Below, piece by piece: positions 27,431 through 38,543 of a DNA stretch of 64,000 nt. The position numbers and the translations under genes were made by a program. The stretch comes from Pseudomonadota bacterium (GTDB lineage: Bacteria; Pseudomonadota; Alphaproteobacteria; Micropepsales; Micropepsaceae): NCBI GenBank assembly GCA_018241025.1, contig JAFEEQ010000003.1, positions 186,001 through 250,000 of the forward strand, in the 5' to 3' direction. The notes below the pieces were generated by a model. The model was not told the DNA's origin and made no database searches. It worked only from the letters and a program-made list of their open reading frames with translations. The first letter of the stretch is position 1. Every line of letters begins with the position of its first letter.

Positions 27431-30400
27431 ATGCACAAGCAGTGGAATTTCTTCATCGATCGCGGCGGCACCTTCACCGATGTGGTGGCGGAGGCGCCGG
27501 ATGGCACGCTGTCGACGCTGAAATTGCTGTCCGACAGCCCGCGCTATGACGACGCAGCGCTGGAAGGAATTCGCCGCGCGACCGGACTTGCGAGCGGTGC
27601 CGGCATTCCGCCGGGCCTCGTGCATGAAGTGCGCATGGGCACGACAGTGGCGACCAATGCGCTGCTGACGCGGCGCGGCGAACGCACCGTGCTGGTGACG
27701 ACGCGCGGGTTCCGCGACCAGCTGCGCATCGGCTACCAGAACCGGCCGAAGCTGTTCGCGCTGAAGATCGAACTGCCCGATATGCTCTATGGCCACGTGA
27801 TCGAGGCCGGCGAGCGGATGGATGCGAAGGGCGGCACGCTCGTGCCGCTGGACGAGGCGGCGCTGGCGCGCGATCTCGCCACGGCGCGGGCGGAGGGGTT
27901 CACCGCCTGTGCCATCGTGTTCCTGCACGGCTTCGCGTTTCCGGCGCATGAGAAGCGCGCGGCGGAGATCGCGCGCACTGCCGGGTTCGAACAGGTAAGC
28001 GCGAGTCACGAGACCGTGCCGCTGATCAAGTTCGTGTCGCGCGGCGACACCACGGTGGCCGATGCCTATCTCTCGCCGGTGCTTGGGCGCTATACGCGAC
28101 GGATCGCCGGCGCGCTCGCGGGCACGCGGCTTTCCTTCATGACCTCGAATGGCGGATTGGCGGCGCCCGAGTTCTTCCGCGGCAAGGATGCGATCGTCTC
28201 GGGGCCCGCGGGCGGCGTCGTCGGCATGGCGGAGACGGCGCGCACCGCCGGCTTCGACAAGGCCATCGGCTTCGACATGGGCGGCACCTCGACCGACGTG
28301 GCGCGTTTCGACGGCGAATATGAGCGGGTCTACGAGACCGAGATCGCGGGCGTCCGGCTGCGCACGCCGATGCTGGCGATCCATACCGTGGCGGCCGGCG
28401 GCGGATCGATCCTCTCCTTCGACGGCGCGCGCTTCCGCGCCGGACCGGATTCGGCGGGCGCCAATCCGGGTCCGATGAGCTATCGCAATGGCGGGCCGCT
28501 GACGGTGACGGACGCCAATGTGATGGTGGGCAAGCTGCGCGGCGAGTACTTCCCGAAAATATTCGGCGTGGCGGGCGATCAGGCGCTGGACGAAGACGCC
28601 GTGCGCGCCGCCTTCGCGGAGCTTGGCGCGCGCGCGGGAATGAGCGCCGAAGCGGTGGCCGACGGATTCATCCGCATCGCGGTCGAGAACATGGCCAATG
28701 CGATCAAGCGCATCTCGGTCGCCAAGGGATACGACGCGCGCGACTATGCCCTCGCCTGCTTCGGCGGCGCGGGCGGGCAGCATGCCTGCCTCGTCGCCGA
28801 CGCGCTCGGCATGACGACGGTGTTCATCCATCAGTTTGCGAGCCTGCTTTCGGCCTATGGCATGAAACTGGCGGCGCTGCGCAGCGTGAAACAGCGCGCG
28901 GTCGGCAAGCCGCTCGCCGGGTCGGAGAAGGCGCTGGCGGCGGCGGTGAGCACGCTGACGCGCGCAGCCGAGACGGAGCTGATCGCGCAGGGCGCGGACC
29001 TGATCGCGAGCGCGGTGCGGGTGCATGTGCGCTATGAGGGCAGCGATACGAGTCTGGCGGTGATGCTGGATGCGCCGGCGGCGATGGCGGAGGCGTTTGC
29101 CGAGGCGCATGCACGGCAGTTCGGATTCGGGTTCGAGGGACGGGCGCTGATCGTGGAGTCGGTGGAGGTGGAGGCGCGGAGTGCGTCGAAAGTTGCAGGG
29201 AGCGCACGGGAGCACACCCTCACCCTGCCCTCTCCCCTGCTTCGCGGGGACGAGGGAATTTCGAAGTTCTTCAGCCAAGGGACGTGGCACGATGCGGCCG
29301 TGATGGAGGCGGCGGCGCTGTCAGAAATCAAGGGCCCTGCGCTGATCGTCGAGCCGCATCAAACCATCGTGGTCGAGCCTGGCTGGAGCGCGGTGCGCAA
29401 CGCGCATGGCATCGTGCTGACGCGGCAGGGCGCGGCGCAGCGTGCGCTGGGATCGATCGAGGCCGATCCGGTGGCGCTGGAAGTCTTCGCCAATCTGTTC
29501 ATGGGGATCGCGGAGGAGATGGGCGCGGTGCTGCAGAACACCGCGACGAGCGTGAACATCAAGGAGCGGCTCGATTTCTCCTGCGCCGTGTTCGATGCCG
29601 AGGGCGGGCTGGTGGCGAATGCACCGCATATGCCGGTGCATCTGGGCTCGATGGGCGATTGCGTGACCGCCGTGATGGCGAAGCATCCCGAGATGCGTGC
29701 CGGCGACGTGTTCGTGACCAATGCCCCTTACGACGGCGGAACGCATCTGCCCGACGTGACGGTGGTGATGCCGGTCTTCGTCGATGGCGTGCGTGCGTTC
29801 TTCGTCGCCGCGCGCGGGCATCATGCCGACATTGGCGGGATCACGCCGGGGTCGATGCCGCCCTTCTCGAAGGATATCGCCGAGGAAGGCGCGCTGTTCG
29901 ACGGCGTCCGCATGGTACAGGACGGGCGCTTCGACGAAGCGGCGGTGCGCGCTGTGCTCGGTGCGGGGACATGGCCGGCGCGCAATCCGGACCAGAACCT
30001 TGCCGATCTGCGGGCACAAGCGGCGGCCTGTGCGAAGGGTGCAGAGGGTCTGCGCCATGCCTGTGCGGTGCATGGACGCGATGTCGTTGCGGCCTATATG
30101 CGGCATGTGCAGGACAATGCCGAAGAGTCGGTGCGCCAGGTGATCGGGCGGCTGTCCGACGGATCGTTCGAGATGGCGATGGATTCCGGCGCCGCGATCC
30201 GCGTGGCGGTGACGGTGGACCGCGCTTCGCGTTCGGCGAAAATCGATTTCGCGGGGACGAGTGCGCAGGCGGCGGACAATTTCAACGCGCCGGGATCGGT
30301 GACCAAGGCGGCGGTACTCTATGTCTTCCGCTGCCTGGTCGACAGCGAGATTCCGATGAATGCGGGATGTCTGAAGCCGCTCGAGATCGTGGTGCCGGAG

Positions 30401-30985
30401 GGCTGCTTCCTGCGCCCGAAGCCGCCAGGCGCGGTGGCGGCGGGCAATGTCGAGACCTCGCAGGCGGTGGTCGATGCGCTGTTTGGAGCGTTGGGCGTGC
30501 TCGCGGCGTCGCAGGGAACGATGAACAATCTCACCTTCGGCAATGCGCGGCACCAGTATTACGAGACGATCTGCGGCGGGGCCGGCGCGGGCGCGGATTT
30601 CGACGGCACCTCGGCGGTGCATACGCATATGACGAACTCGCGGCTGACCGATCCGGAAATTCTGGAGACGCGGTTTCCGGTGCGGGTGGAGGAGTTCCGC
30701 GTTCGCACGGGCTCCGGCGGCACGGGCGCACACAAGGGCGGCGACGGTGCGGTGCGGCGGATCCGCTTTCTCGAAGACATGACGGCGGCGATACTCTCGA
30801 CACGGCGCGTGACCGAGCCGTTCGGCCTGGCAGGCGGTGCGGCGGGCGCGAAGGGCCGCAACACGGTGCTGCGCAAGGACGGAACCGAGGTTGCGCTCAA
30901 GGGTTGCGATGAGGTCGACATCGCTGCGGGCGAAGCGATCACGATCGAAACGCCGGGCGGCGGCGGATTTGGAGGAAAATCATGA
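27431..30985 (+). CDS. 5-oxoprolinase / hydantoinase A-B fusion (ATP-hydrolysing)
   Basis: The 1184-residue protein combines HyuA (about 1-650) and HyuB (about 675-1175) domains, the layout of ATP-dependent 5-oxoprolinases that open 5-oxoproline to glutamate. [15 protein letters not shown] starts the ATPase fold, [11 protein letters not shown] and GGAGGQHA are further ATP-binding segments, and the B half has [26 protein letters not shown] and [16 protein letters not shown] hydantoin substrate cannot be excluded. An embedded repeat (29216-29256) adds a foreign segment in the linker. Its stop overlaps the next ATG by 4 bp. Confidence 0.85.
29216..29256. repeat. Dispersed hairpin repeat embedded in frame in the 5-oxoprolinase gene
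   Basis: The segment starts with a CACCCTCACCCTGCCCTC run and forms a hairpin (CCCTC/GAGGG outer, TCCCC/GGGGA inner) at 29228-29256. It encodes [15 protein letters not shown], a peptide typical of intergenic repeats read through in frame. No other copy was found in this window. Confidence 0.6.
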
Positions 30986-31662
30986 CGACCGTTCTCGTTA
31001 CCGGCGCCAATCGCGGCATCGGGCTGGAATTCGTGAAGCAATACGCGGCCGACGGCGCGGAGGTTATCGCCTGTTGCCGTGAGCCAGATGCCGCGAAAGA
31101 GCTGAAGGCCGTGAAGGGTAATGTCCGTGTCGTGGCGCTCGACGTGACCGCGCCGGCGTCGGTCGAGGCGCTCCAGCGGACGCTGGACGGCGTGGCGATC
31201 GACATCGTCATCAACAATGCCGGGGTCGGCGGGCCGCGCGAACGCACGACCGGGATCATTCCGTTCGAGGCCTGGCTGAAAGTGTTCGCGGTCAACAGCG
31301 TGGCGCCGGTGCTCGTCGCGTCGGCACTGCGCGACAACCTGCTGAAGGGAACGCAGAAGAAGCTGGTGACGATCACGAGCCAGCTCGGCTCCGTCGCCAA
31401 TCACGGCGGCGGCGCCTATCCCTATCATGCCTCGAAGGCGGCGGTGAATTCCTTCATGCGCGGGCTTTCGAAGGAATGGGCGCGCGACGGCATCGCCGTC
31501 GGCATCTTCCATCCCGGCTGGGTGAAGACCGACATGGGCGGACAGAGTGCGCCGGTCACGCCGGAACAATCGGTGCGCGGATTGCGCGCGCGCATAGCGG
31601 AACTGTCGCTCGCAAACACCGGCTCGTTTTGGGATTTTCAGGGCAAGGAAATTGCCTGGTAG
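30982..31662 (+). CDS. Short-chain dehydrogenase/reductase
   Basis: The 226-residue product is a classical SDR. The nucleotide-binding motif is VTGANRGIGLEF (6-17), NNAG is present (near 80), the catalytic Ser is in TSQLGS, and the Tyr and Lys are in YHASK. VFHPGW-like FHPGWVKTDMGG follows. The short C terminus fits a carbonyl or C-factor-like SDR. The substrate is unknown. The ATG overlaps the 5-oxoprolinase stop (ATGA), so the two are translationally coupled. Confidence 0.88.
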   Translation: MTTVLVTGANRGIGLEFVKQYAADGAEVIACCREPDAAKELKAVKGNVRVVALDVTAPASVEALQRTLDGVAIDIVINNAGVGGPRERTTGIIPFEAWLKVFAVNSVAPVLVASALRDNLLKGTQKKLVTITSQLGSVANHGGGAYPYHASKAAVNSFMRGLSKEWARDGIAVGIFHPGWVKTDMGGQSAPVTPEQSVRGLRARIAELSLANTGSFWDFQGKEIAW

Positions 31663-31884: not shown

Positions 31885-31910
31885 CGCTTCACGACGGGAA
31901 ACGAGTTCAG

Positions 31911-31940
31911 GCCGCGGCGGGGGCGCCGCGGCTTTTTCTT
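31911..31940 (+). terminator. Rho-independent terminator of the microprotein gene
   Basis: GCCGCGGCG (31911-31919) and CGCCGCGGC (31924-31932) form a perfect 9-bp stem with a GGGG loop, followed by TTTTTCTT on the plus strand. The minus side has no T-run. Confidence 0.88.
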
Positions 31941-31966: not shown

Positions 31967-32902
31967 TCAGTGCGCGTCCGCGGCAGTGATGTAGAGCTTG
32001 TGTTCGCGATACGCGACGTAGAGATGCAGCTTGCGCAACACATTCGCGCCGATGATGGCCGTCCTCGGCATCTTGCTTTCGGAATCCGGCACCAGCAGGA
32101 TGTCCGGATTGTTCACCGCAACGCCGCCGAACGCCATGGACTTGAAACGATAACGGTAGATATGCGTGTCGGGCTCGTTCCGAACGATCTCGAGGTTGGG
32201 CGACGAAAGATCAAAATCGAAAAGACGCTCCGCCAGTTCGAGGCTCATGAACGAGGTTGCCGATCCGGTGTCGAGCGATGCGGTGAAATCCACGCCATCC
32301 GTCAACAGCTTGACGTCGATATGGGCCTTGCCCTCGAAGGTGAAAGGCAGAACGGCGTAGTCGGTGGCCCAGTACACGACGTTTCCTGGACAGTGATGCT
32401 GTGAGTAGAGATTGAACCGCGAACCGGCAAAGTCGAATTCGGCATCGTAGGCGCCGATGATATCAGGCGCGAGCGTTCCACCCAATTTGATCTCGGGAGC
32501 GCGGTTCGGCATGACGACCAGCAGCATTTCGTCGGCCTTCATGCCGCCAAGAGCGACATTCGGCGCGCGCACGAAGCTCTTGAGCTTCGCGCCGCCAAAC
32601 ATCTCGAAATACATCTGGTGCGCTATAGGCGTCTTGTGCAGCCCGAGCGATGCCACGCTGTCCTCTGTCAGCGCCGATATCACGCCACCGGTATCGATCA
32701 GCATGTCGACCGTGCTGCCATCGATTTGCATCGGAACGAATGGTCTTCCCGTCGGGTCCATTTCCATCTGCACCGACGCAAGCCGCGTGATGGTGCAGGC
32801 TTCGTCGGCATGCGCCGACAGGACGAAGCCGCCGGAAAGCAAGATTCCGAACGCGCATATTCTAACGACATTCAGCAAGGCGGTCCCCCGATCAATGCGC
32901 AT
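31967..32902 (-). CDS. Secreted retropepsin-like aspartyl protease, paralogue 3 of 3
   Basis: The 311-residue product has an N-terminal signal segment (about 8-32), then two protease-like halves, each with an aspartyl motif: LIDTGGV (first lobe) and SLDTGSATS (second lobe). This two-DTG layout is like a bilobal pepsin made in one chain. Two conserved cysteines follow the signal (ACTITR) and lie near HHCPGNVVYW, which could form a disulfide. The start at 32902 overlaps the upstream paralogue by 11 bp. Its proteolytic activity is inferred. Confidence 0.72.
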   Translation of the reverse strand: MRIDRGTALLNVVRICAFGILLSGGFVLSAHADEACTITRLASVQMEMDPTGRPFVPMQIDGSTVDMLIDTGGVISALTEDSVASLGLHKTPIAHQMYFEMFGGAKLKSFVRAPNVALGGMKADEMLLVVMPNRAPEIKLGGTLAPDIIGAYDAEFDFAGSRFNLYSQHHCPGNVVYWATDYAVLPFTFEGKAHIDVKLLTDGVDFTASLDTGSATSFMSLELAERLFDFDLSSPNLEIVRNEPDTHIYRYRFKSMAFGGVAVNNPDILLVPDSESKMPRTAIIGANVLRKLHLYVAYREHKLYITAADAH

Positions 32903-33791
32903 CGGCGGGCGTGACGTAGAGCTTGTGCTCGCGATAGGCGATATAAAGGTGGAGGTGGTGCAGGATGCTGACGCCCAGGATTAAGCTGTGCATGTGCGAA
33001 TCCCGGTCCGGTACGAGTTCGATGTCCGGATTGTTCACCGTCACGCCGCCAAACGTCATGGTTTTGAATCCGTATCTGTAGCGACGGAATCCGGCGCCCG
33101 TCGGAAGCGTCGTCAGGCCGGGTGACGCGGAATCGAAATCGAACATGTCCTCTGCCATTTCGAGGCTCATGATCGAGTGGGTCGAGCCGCTGTCGAGAAT
33201 GGCGCTCTGAACCTTGCCGTCGAGCGTGACCTCGAGCCGGATATGCTTGTCCCTGTCGAAGGTGAAGGGAACGATGGCGTAATCCGTCGCCCAATAGACG
33301 ACCTTCCCCGGGCAATGATCCTGGGTATAGAGCTTGAAGGTCGACGCGCCGAAATCGAAATCGACGTCGTAGGATCGCAGGATATCGGGCGCGAGCGTAC
33401 CTTCGATTTCGTCGGAAAGGCCGCTGCCGGGAAGTACGAGGAAGTCCAACTGCGACGCTTTGAGGCCGCCGAACTCGATGTCATGGGCGACGACGTAGTT
33501 GGTGATGCGGGTGCCGCCGAACTCCATGAAATAGCCATCCTGAATCGATTGTTGATACAGAGAGAGCGTCTTGACCGTCTTTTCCGAGAGCATCGACACA
33601 ACACCGGCGGTATCGACCAGAAGGTTGACTGTGTGGCCGGAAATCTGCATCGGGACCTGCACACCCCTGTCGCTATCGGGCCGCATCTGAATTGCAGCAA
33701 TGCGCGTAACCGTGCAGACGTCTTCGGCACGTGCGAGAGCAGCGAGGCCGATCACCGTTGCAAATGTGAAAACGAAAGCAGCCTTTGCCAT
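32892..33791 (-). CDS. Secreted retropepsin-like aspartyl protease paralogue 2, degenerate first motif
   Basis: The 299-residue product shares the architecture of its neighbours: signal peptide (1-22), DVCTVTR start of the mature part, APDIL in the first half and DHCPGKVVYWATDYAIVPFTF in the middle. The first active-site motif reads LVDTAGV, with Ala in place of the third Gly, and the second reads ILDSGSTHS. DSG is accepted in pepsins, but DTA is unusual. This copy may be weakened or inactive. It lies 12 bp after paralogue 1 and overlaps paralogue 3. Confidence 0.7.
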   Translation of the reverse strand: MAKAAFVFTFATVIGLAALARAEDVCTVTRIAAIQMRPDSDRGVQVPMQISGHTVNLLVDTAGVVSMLSEKTVKTLSLYQQSIQDGYFMEFGGTRITNYVVAHDIEFGGLKASQLDFLVLPGSGLSDEIEGTLAPDILRSYDVDFDFGASTFKLYTQDHCPGKVVYWATDYAIVPFTFDRDKHIRLEVTLDGKVQSAILDSGSTHSIMSLEMAEDMFDFDSASPGLTTLPTGAGFRRYRYGFKTMTFGGVTVNNPDIELVPDRDSHMHSLILGVSILHHLHLYIAYREHKLYVTPADAH

Positions 33792-33803
33792 AATTTTTTT
33801 GCC

Positions 33804-34703
33804 TCAATGCGCATCGGCCGATGAGACGTAGAGTTTGTGTTCGCGGTAGGCGATGTAGAGATGGAGTTTGCGCAGGACGCTCATGCCCAGGATCGTGCCA
33901 CGCATGTGGGAGTCGTTGTCCGGAATGAGGTCGATGTCCGGGTTGCTCACGATCACGCCGCCGAAGGTCATCGTCTTGAGCGGATATTTGTAGCGGCGGT
34001 AGTCGGCGGCCGCTTGCAAGGTCTTGAGATCGGGGGATGCGGTATCGAAGCCAAAGAGGCTCTCGGCGAGTTCGAGGCTCATGCTCGACAGCGTCGAGCC
34101 GGTGTCGAGGTCGGCATGAACAAGCTTGCCGTCGACGGTGACTTCGAGGCGGATATGGCCGTATTCGTCGAGCGTGAACGGGATGACGGAATAGCCCGTC
34201 GTCCAGTAGACGACCTTGCCTTCGCAATGGTCCTGCGAGAACAGCTTGAAGGTCGAGTTGCCGAAATCGAAATCGACGTCATAGGCGCGCAGGATGTCGG
34301 GCGCGAGCGTGCCGCCGACGTCCTTCTCGAGATAGCCATCGGGCATGACGAGGAAATTGAAGCTCGAGGCCTTCAGCCCGCCCAGTTCGATGTCATGGGC
34401 GACGACGAAGCGGTCGATGCGCTTGCCACCAAACATCCGAAAGGAAATCGAGGTATTGAACAACTGCTTCTTGAGGCCAAAATCGGCGACCGCTGCTTCG
34501 GTCAACATCGAGTATACGCCGCCGGTGTCGACCAGGAGGTTCACCGGTTTGCCGGCGATCTGCATTGGAATGTCGACGCCGTTCGCAGCGTCCAGAGCCA
34601 TCGGGATCGACGTAATCCGGTTGACGGTGCAAACCTCTTCGGCGCGGGCGGGCAAGGCGAGCAGGAGCAGTACGCTCAGCGCGAGCGTCAGCGTTTTCGG
34701 CAT
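33804..34703 (-). CDS. Secreted retropepsin-like aspartyl protease, paralogue 1 of 3
   Basis: The 299-residue product has a signal peptide (MPKTLTLALSVLLLLALPARA), motifs LVDTGGV at 59-61 and LDTGSTLS at 200-202, and GTLAPDIL and CEGKVVYWTTGYSVIPFTL shared with the two paralogues. The ATG at 34703 has CCGGGGGGACGG upstream; a TTG at 34730 is a weaker alternative. It is the first gene of a three-gene operon read leftward. Sequence similarity of the copies and their tight spacing show tandem duplication. Confidence 0.75.
   Translation of the reverse strand: MPKTLTLALSVLLLLALPARAEEVCTVNRITSIPMALDAANGVDIPMQIAGKPVNLLVDTGGVYSMLTEAAVADFGLKKQLFNTSISFRMFGGKRIDRFVVAHDIELGGLKASSFNFLVMPDGYLEKDVGGTLAPDILRAYDVDFDFGNSTFKLFSQDHCEGKVVYWTTGYSVIPFTLDEYGHIRLEVTVDGKLVHADLDTGSTLSSMSLELAESLFGFDTASPDLKTLQAAADYRRYKYPLKTMTFGGVIVSNPDIDLIPDNDSHMRGTILGMSVLRKLHLYIAYREHKLYVSSADAH

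Positions 34704-34835: not shown

Positions 34836-38539
<3,704 letters not shown>

Positions 38540-38543
<4 letters not shown>

Follow-up and report, generated by a model that had tools for sequence, protein, structure and literature searches.

The question raised by this locus was whether three adjacent genes, initially annotated as a tandem triplication of secreted proteases with two aspartyl motifs each, encode bilobal enzymes in a single chain, and how such a set arose. We consider it likely that the trio encodes exported single-chain aspartic endopeptidases, locally multiplied at the metH site and belonging to a family assisted by a TPR protein. All three genes are located on the minus strand of the window, i.e., the whole stretch of 64,000 nucleotides analysed, and code for proteins of the anticipated size of about 300 aa. 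Gene A, the first of the set (33804..34703), encodes 299 aa counted from ATG, gene B (32892..33791) also 299 aa and gene C (31967..32902) 311 aa. In gene A, an in-frame TTG would lengthen the ORF to 34730. Good ribosome-binding-like sequences precede the ATG codons of A (GGGGGGA) and B (GAGG). Of the 11- and 12-bp spacings reported initially, the 12-bp gap between A and B was confirmed, but the 11-bp overlap between B and C depends on the first ATG of C. A TTG at 32875, 8 nt behind GGGGGA and leaving a 16-bp gap to B, may just as plausibly be the true start of gene C. The gene spacing alone suggests that A, B and C are co-transcribed.

Two stretches of each protein matched PF13650, with whole-protein E-values of 2.8e-19 for C, 2e-19 for B and 1.1e-21 for A and scores of 70, 70.5 and 77.8 bits, all above the cut-off of 24.3 bits; at such E-values, the family assignment is not a matter of chance. 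The pairwise identity within the trio was 48–60%. Two aspartyl motifs were indeed found in all three proteins, DTG/DTG in A and C and DTA/DSG in B, which departs from DTG in both lobes and in part from the D-[TS]-G pattern. The conserved N-terminal Cys was also present in A, B and C, and the DHC-x-G-x-VVYW signature was exact in A and B but began with HHC in C, giving a linker motif of (D/H)HCxGxVVYW across the trio. The N-termini, assessed by eye for signal peptides, displayed a hydrophobic stretch and an AxA-like site with the Cys shortly behind, suggesting that all three proteins are exported to the periplasm or outside the cell.

The AlphaFold2 model of A, for which the alignments comprised 27 rows drawn from window proteins and related loci, had a mean pLDDT of 91.7 and a pTM of 0.86 and represented one bilobal pepsin-like fold. 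Lobe-versus-lobe hhalign and the predicted strands delimited lobe 1 at residues 27–158 (34230..34625, minus strand) and lobe 2 at residues 169–299 (33807..34199, minus strand). The top structural match in both Foldseek and VIA-align was 9iy9, an exported putative endopeptidase of Bacteroides fragilis (VIA-align Z of 22.6 and rmsd of 3.1 over 250 aligned residues). For endothiapepsin 4ape, Z was 19.2 (247 residues aligned over 29–296, rmsd 3.7), and many A1 structures gave Z values of 17.6–19.2 over residues 29–296. Matches of both lobes at such Z values indicate that the lobes of A would pair like those of pepsin, which implies, as far as the model goes, that the aligned catalytic residues D59 of the lobe-1 DTG (codon 34527..34529, minus strand) and D200 of the lobe-2 DTG (codon 34104..34106, minus strand) would share one active site within a single chain. 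The structure prediction proposed as a check of pepsin-like pairing thus came out in favor of a bilobal protease in a single chain, with a confident model and full-length matches to pepsin-type structures.

When aligned to each other, the two lobe profiles gave an hhalign probability of 99 and an E-value of 7.7e-18, which shows the protein to be an internal duplicate. By sequence, the lobes are retropepsin-like, with relatives among TIGR02281, ApRick, DDI1 and the retroviral proteases, and no match of pepsin-family Pfam models to A, B or C was obtained up to an E-value of 1. The trio is pepsin-like in predicted architecture, yet by sequence it lies outside the pepsin family A1.

A second feature concerns cysteines. 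In gene A these are Cys25 (34629..34631, minus strand) and Cys160 (34224..34226, minus strand), the latter lying in the DHCxGxVVYW motif of the interlobe linker. The Cys25 position was conserved in 85 of 89 homologues and that of Cys160 in 84, being moved nearby in three more. Exactly two Cys residues, one N-terminal and one in the linker, were found in the mature domains of 74 homologues and four or six in 8; three homologues had two with the linker Cys displaced and two lacked both. Complete homologues carried 0, 2, 4 or 6 residues and none an odd number, the two one-Cys rows being sequences cut at a contig end. The simplest reading of this pairing is a disulfide between Cys25 and Cys160, which would tie the N-terminus to the interlobe linker. 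One lineage of array members (L069:4392-5522 and L086:2394-3506) lacks both conserved Cys residues and the linker W; here, the presumed disulfide appears to have been lost along with the linker motif.

To the upstream side, the trio is bordered by metH, encoding the B12-dependent methionine synthase (34836..38543, minus strand), which marks a site common to L037, L058, L059 and L077. On the other side, a convergent gene of an SDR-family dehydrogenase (30982..31662, plus strand) and, as the outer neighbour, the hydantoinase/oxoprolinase A+B region (27431..30985, plus strand) form an arrangement shared with L037, L038 and L077, all neighbours being assigned by Pfam. The gene order in L077 is hydantoinase, SDR, protease, metH, and that of the window is identical except for the three proteases. 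In L037, metH is followed by a TPR gene and the protease, with SDR and hydantoinase next on the opposite strand, and the order metH, TPR, protease was also found in L058 and L059. Relatives have one protease copy at this site, the window has three, and the L077 copy is catalytically dead (STG/ATG). Apart from the TPR gene, no conserved functional neighbours were found at the metH site; metH, SDR and hydantoinase seem to be housekeeping genes with no connection to the proteases. A TPR gene is absent beside the window trio, and a three-frame translation of the 132 bp that separate metH from A, inspected by eye, revealed nothing like a TPR C-terminus. In the interval from the SDR gene to gene C, a strong hairpin with a T-rich tail was noticed at 31909-31934 on the plus strand; it is possibly a terminator of the hydantoinase/SDR side.

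In a small careful tree, the trio formed a clade with a support of 94/87, but the grouping of C with L077 instead of A and B was not rejected (p-AU 0.21), so the multiplication could predate the split from L077. The tandem triplication proposed initially has moderate phylogenetic support. The small careful tree did not resolve a six-row metH clade that had received an SH-aLRT of 98 in a large quick tree. The duplication is not recent, given the identity of 48–60%. The NG86 estimates of dN and dS were 0.28 and 1.10 for A–B, 0.42 and 1.14 for A–C and 0.42 and 1.32 for B–C; the resulting dN/dS ratios of about 0.26–0.37 indicate purifying selection. Compared in 30-codon windows, A, B and C nowhere shared an unusually high third-position identity that would point to gene conversion.

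The genome of the window contains five full-length copies, i.e., the trio, one copy on contig C6 and one on contig C2. Among 24 additional genomes from the genus, 20 gave at least one match, and copies also occur in some related families within the class; duplicate records (L082 = L049, L076 = L047 and L053 = L064) were counted once. A site between ubiD and pmbA holds 0–4 copies in relatives, and cysQ, waaA and lpxK come next in many of the genomes. Single copies occur there in L039, L041, L048, L049, L052, L054 and L080, two copies in L043 and L068, three in L046, L065 and L066 and four in L045, one of them split across two frames. In L067, pmbA is preceded by three copies at the edge of a contig; L078 has one split copy. 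Arrays of three or four were found in a second family (G037 and G154). The initial impression that bacterial tandem sets are uncommon was wrong for this lineage, in which arrays of two to four recur. The split copies (L045:7878-9032 and L078:5422-6356) represent either frameshifted pseudogenes or assembly errors. In a third recurrent setting, an acyl-CoA dehydrogenase gene is immediately preceded by one or two protease genes (L047, L057 and L076).

The arrays of 1–4 copies between ubiD and pmbA in about 15 relatives, with lipid A genes next in many of them, would fit proteases of envelope maturation comparable to RloA of Pseudomonas and APRc of Rickettsia, and secreted retropepsins influence envelope traits in P. 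aeruginosa (PMC12239564). Such a role would be compatible with, and a narrower form of, the explanation preferred here. However, the window copies are located at metH, and the ubiD–MAPEG–pmbA region of the window genome (G000:C10:9474-12848; L096, L097 and L103) is an empty array site without the protease. Moreover, ubiD, pmbA and waaA are housekeeping genes, the order of which may be ancestral and unrelated to the proteases. An envelope function of the trio was regarded as possible, with the balance tilted against it.

The TPR partner was encountered well beyond the metH site. A TPR gene lies directly upstream on the same strand in eight loci (L037, L056, L058, L059, L061, L063, L064 and L073), of which L056 is the C6 locus of the window's own genome. 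Pfam detected the protease and TPR parts in one protein in L084:1069-2991 and L085:56-1897, and three more homologues look like fusions of this type, with the TPR part judged from the sequence (L100:3420-5264, L101:2912-4831 and L102:2942-4732). In the fusion homologues, of about 600–640 aa, TPR repeats follow the bilobal protease; L100–L102 come from other families, and L100 from outside the class of the window. The protease signals of L099 were rejected as being due to the TPR regions of the fusion queries, the profile giving no protease match. Operons and fusions together are good evidence of a functional link between protease and TPR protein, and they provide a concrete first lead toward the substrates. 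The TPR protein may act as an adaptor that holds or selects substrates.

Proteolysis by the trio members, suggested by their motifs, had to be weighed against the loss of catalytic residues elsewhere in the family. Both catalytic Asp residues were kept in 66 of the 89 homologues; lobe 1 alone had lost its Asp in 11, lobe 2 alone in 1 and both lobes in 11. At least one was thus missing in 23 of 89, the lobe-1 Asp being conserved in 67 and the lobe-2 Asp in 77. The tree, computed after removal of the motif columns, required the dyad to have switched between the intact and the broken state at least 12 times; the extreme motif readings in L079 and L081 belong to long branches and may be misaligned. 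The array pair L069/L086 (GTG/DSA and ATG/DTA), which lacks the lobe-1 Asp, showed 86% identity and a dN/dS of 0.075/0.735 = 0.10, the lowest among the four orthologous pairs of its array (0.229/0.705, 0.128/0.925 and 0.135/0.963 for the other three, with ratios of 0.14–0.32). The dead members do not merely represent genes in decay. The doubly dead L054 (EFG/ATD), with related dead copies in several genomes, retained the bilobal fold in its predicted structure (pLDDT 83.6, pTM 0.81, Z of 19.4 to 9iy9 and 18.3 to 4ape), a model that may be biased toward this fold by an alignment of mostly intact homologues. Loss of catalysis with the fold kept is a frequent outcome family-wide, and intact and dead copies are mixed in arrays, e.g., in L066, L067 and L046.

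Within the trio, B is most likely the copy with altered or reduced activity, as far as its motifs can tell. A stronger version, in which B would already be a pseudoprotease regulating or competing with A and C, draws on its DTA/DSG motifs and on these mixed arrays of relatives. B nevertheless keeps both Asp residues, DTA combined with an intact second Asp also occurs in L040 and L060, and some pepsins normally have DSG in their second lobe; this version was considered rather improbable.

As a catalytic Asp is missing in 23 of 89 homologues, including L077 at the same site, binding and not cleavage could be the common function. The frequent loss of catalysis with the fold kept makes a binding or regulatory role a serious rival, in which the family would be mainly a scaffold for peptides or proteins outside the cytoplasm, catalysis being optional and the trio representing three binding variants. 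The repeated dyad changes, the strong constraint on L069/L086 and the predicted fold of L054 all speak for it, as does the better conservation of the Cys residues and of the W and Asp in the linker than of the catalytic Asp. The presence of both Asp residues in 66 of 89 homologues, distant ones included, as well as in A, B and C, speaks against it, and we hold it to be unlikely. A role as nutritional or broad-specificity digestive peptidases, the multiplication of which would raise the dose and breadth of protein breakdown, would fit exported paralogues that are repeatedly amplified and variable in copy number, but a more specific role is indicated by the TPR linkage, the conserved chromosomal positions and the recurrent loss of catalysis with the fold kept, which leave this explanation doubtful.

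According to the preferred reading of the trio as exported endopeptidases, a retropepsin-type domain was duplicated internally to give a two-lobed chain, in which the lobes would pair and each contribute one Asp to a single intramolecular active site, the structure being stapled by the disulfide from the N-terminus to the linker. One gene between metH and SDR/hydantoinase would then have been multiplied locally into A, B and C. A TPR protein, encoded just before the protease or fused to it in the family, could aid the holding or selection of substrates, and purifying selection keeps the copies, the specificities of which have probably diverged. A more speculative proposal, to which little probability is given, is that the TPR protein and the bilobal protease form an exported alphaproteobacterial module which reached a pepsin-like architecture through its own retropepsin duplication and that its arrays are sets of peptide-binding and peptide-cleaving members, in which non-catalytic paralogues are selected and do not represent redundant enzymes. 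Natural pseudoproteases are numerous in this family and occur in arrays beside intact copies, at least one of them being under strong purifying selection; no report of pseudoproteases in arrays among bacterial aspartic proteases was found in the open-access literature. The same literature yielded no description of the Cys-stapled, TPR-linked, array-forming subfamily or its pseudoproteases.

The general kind of protein is already known, as general family models cover two-domain PF13650 proteins and the structure 9iy9 exists. Each lobe of the trio is of the TIGR02281 type (E-value of 2.3e-15 for A), although the scores of 45.8, 31.6 and 56.9 bits were all below the cut-off of 57.95 bits. ApRick/APRc of Rickettsia (5c9b), which is lobe-like, matched the family profile with an E-value of 8e-6. 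Single-domain retropepsin-like bacterial proteases also include PerP of Caulobacter. Proteases such as TIGR02281 members and APRc have one domain and act as dimers, whereas the trio has two domains per chain and in this respect departs from MEROPS A2, with its one protease domain per chain. In P. aeruginosa, RloA enzymes are exported, retropepsin-like and present as three redundant paralogues in one genome, form dimers related to RimB and in one case share their operon with rloB and rloC (PMC12239564). The trio is likewise paralogous and probably exported, but RloA proteins, likened here by description, are dimers of a different subfamily.

The closest known structure, 9iy9, was the top PDB profile match too, with both lobes matched and DTG in each. 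It differs from the trio in its identity of about 14% and its length of 420 aa, with roughly 150 residues ahead of the matched part, and its lobe 2 is only a weak sequence match to the trio family. The pepsins of family A1 (endothiapepsin and pepsin) are bilobal single chains over the whole length, as in the model of A, and the bacterial A1 shewasins are of the same bilobal single-chain type; bacterial A1 homologues have no signal peptides (PMC2761423). It has long been asked how an ancestor of half the size gave rise to the two lobes of pepsin. In pepsin, the lobes share only short motifs (PMC2761423), whereas those of the trio family are still alike by profile, and the predicted pepsin arrangement of such still-related lobes makes this family a testable model of the duplication–fusion step.
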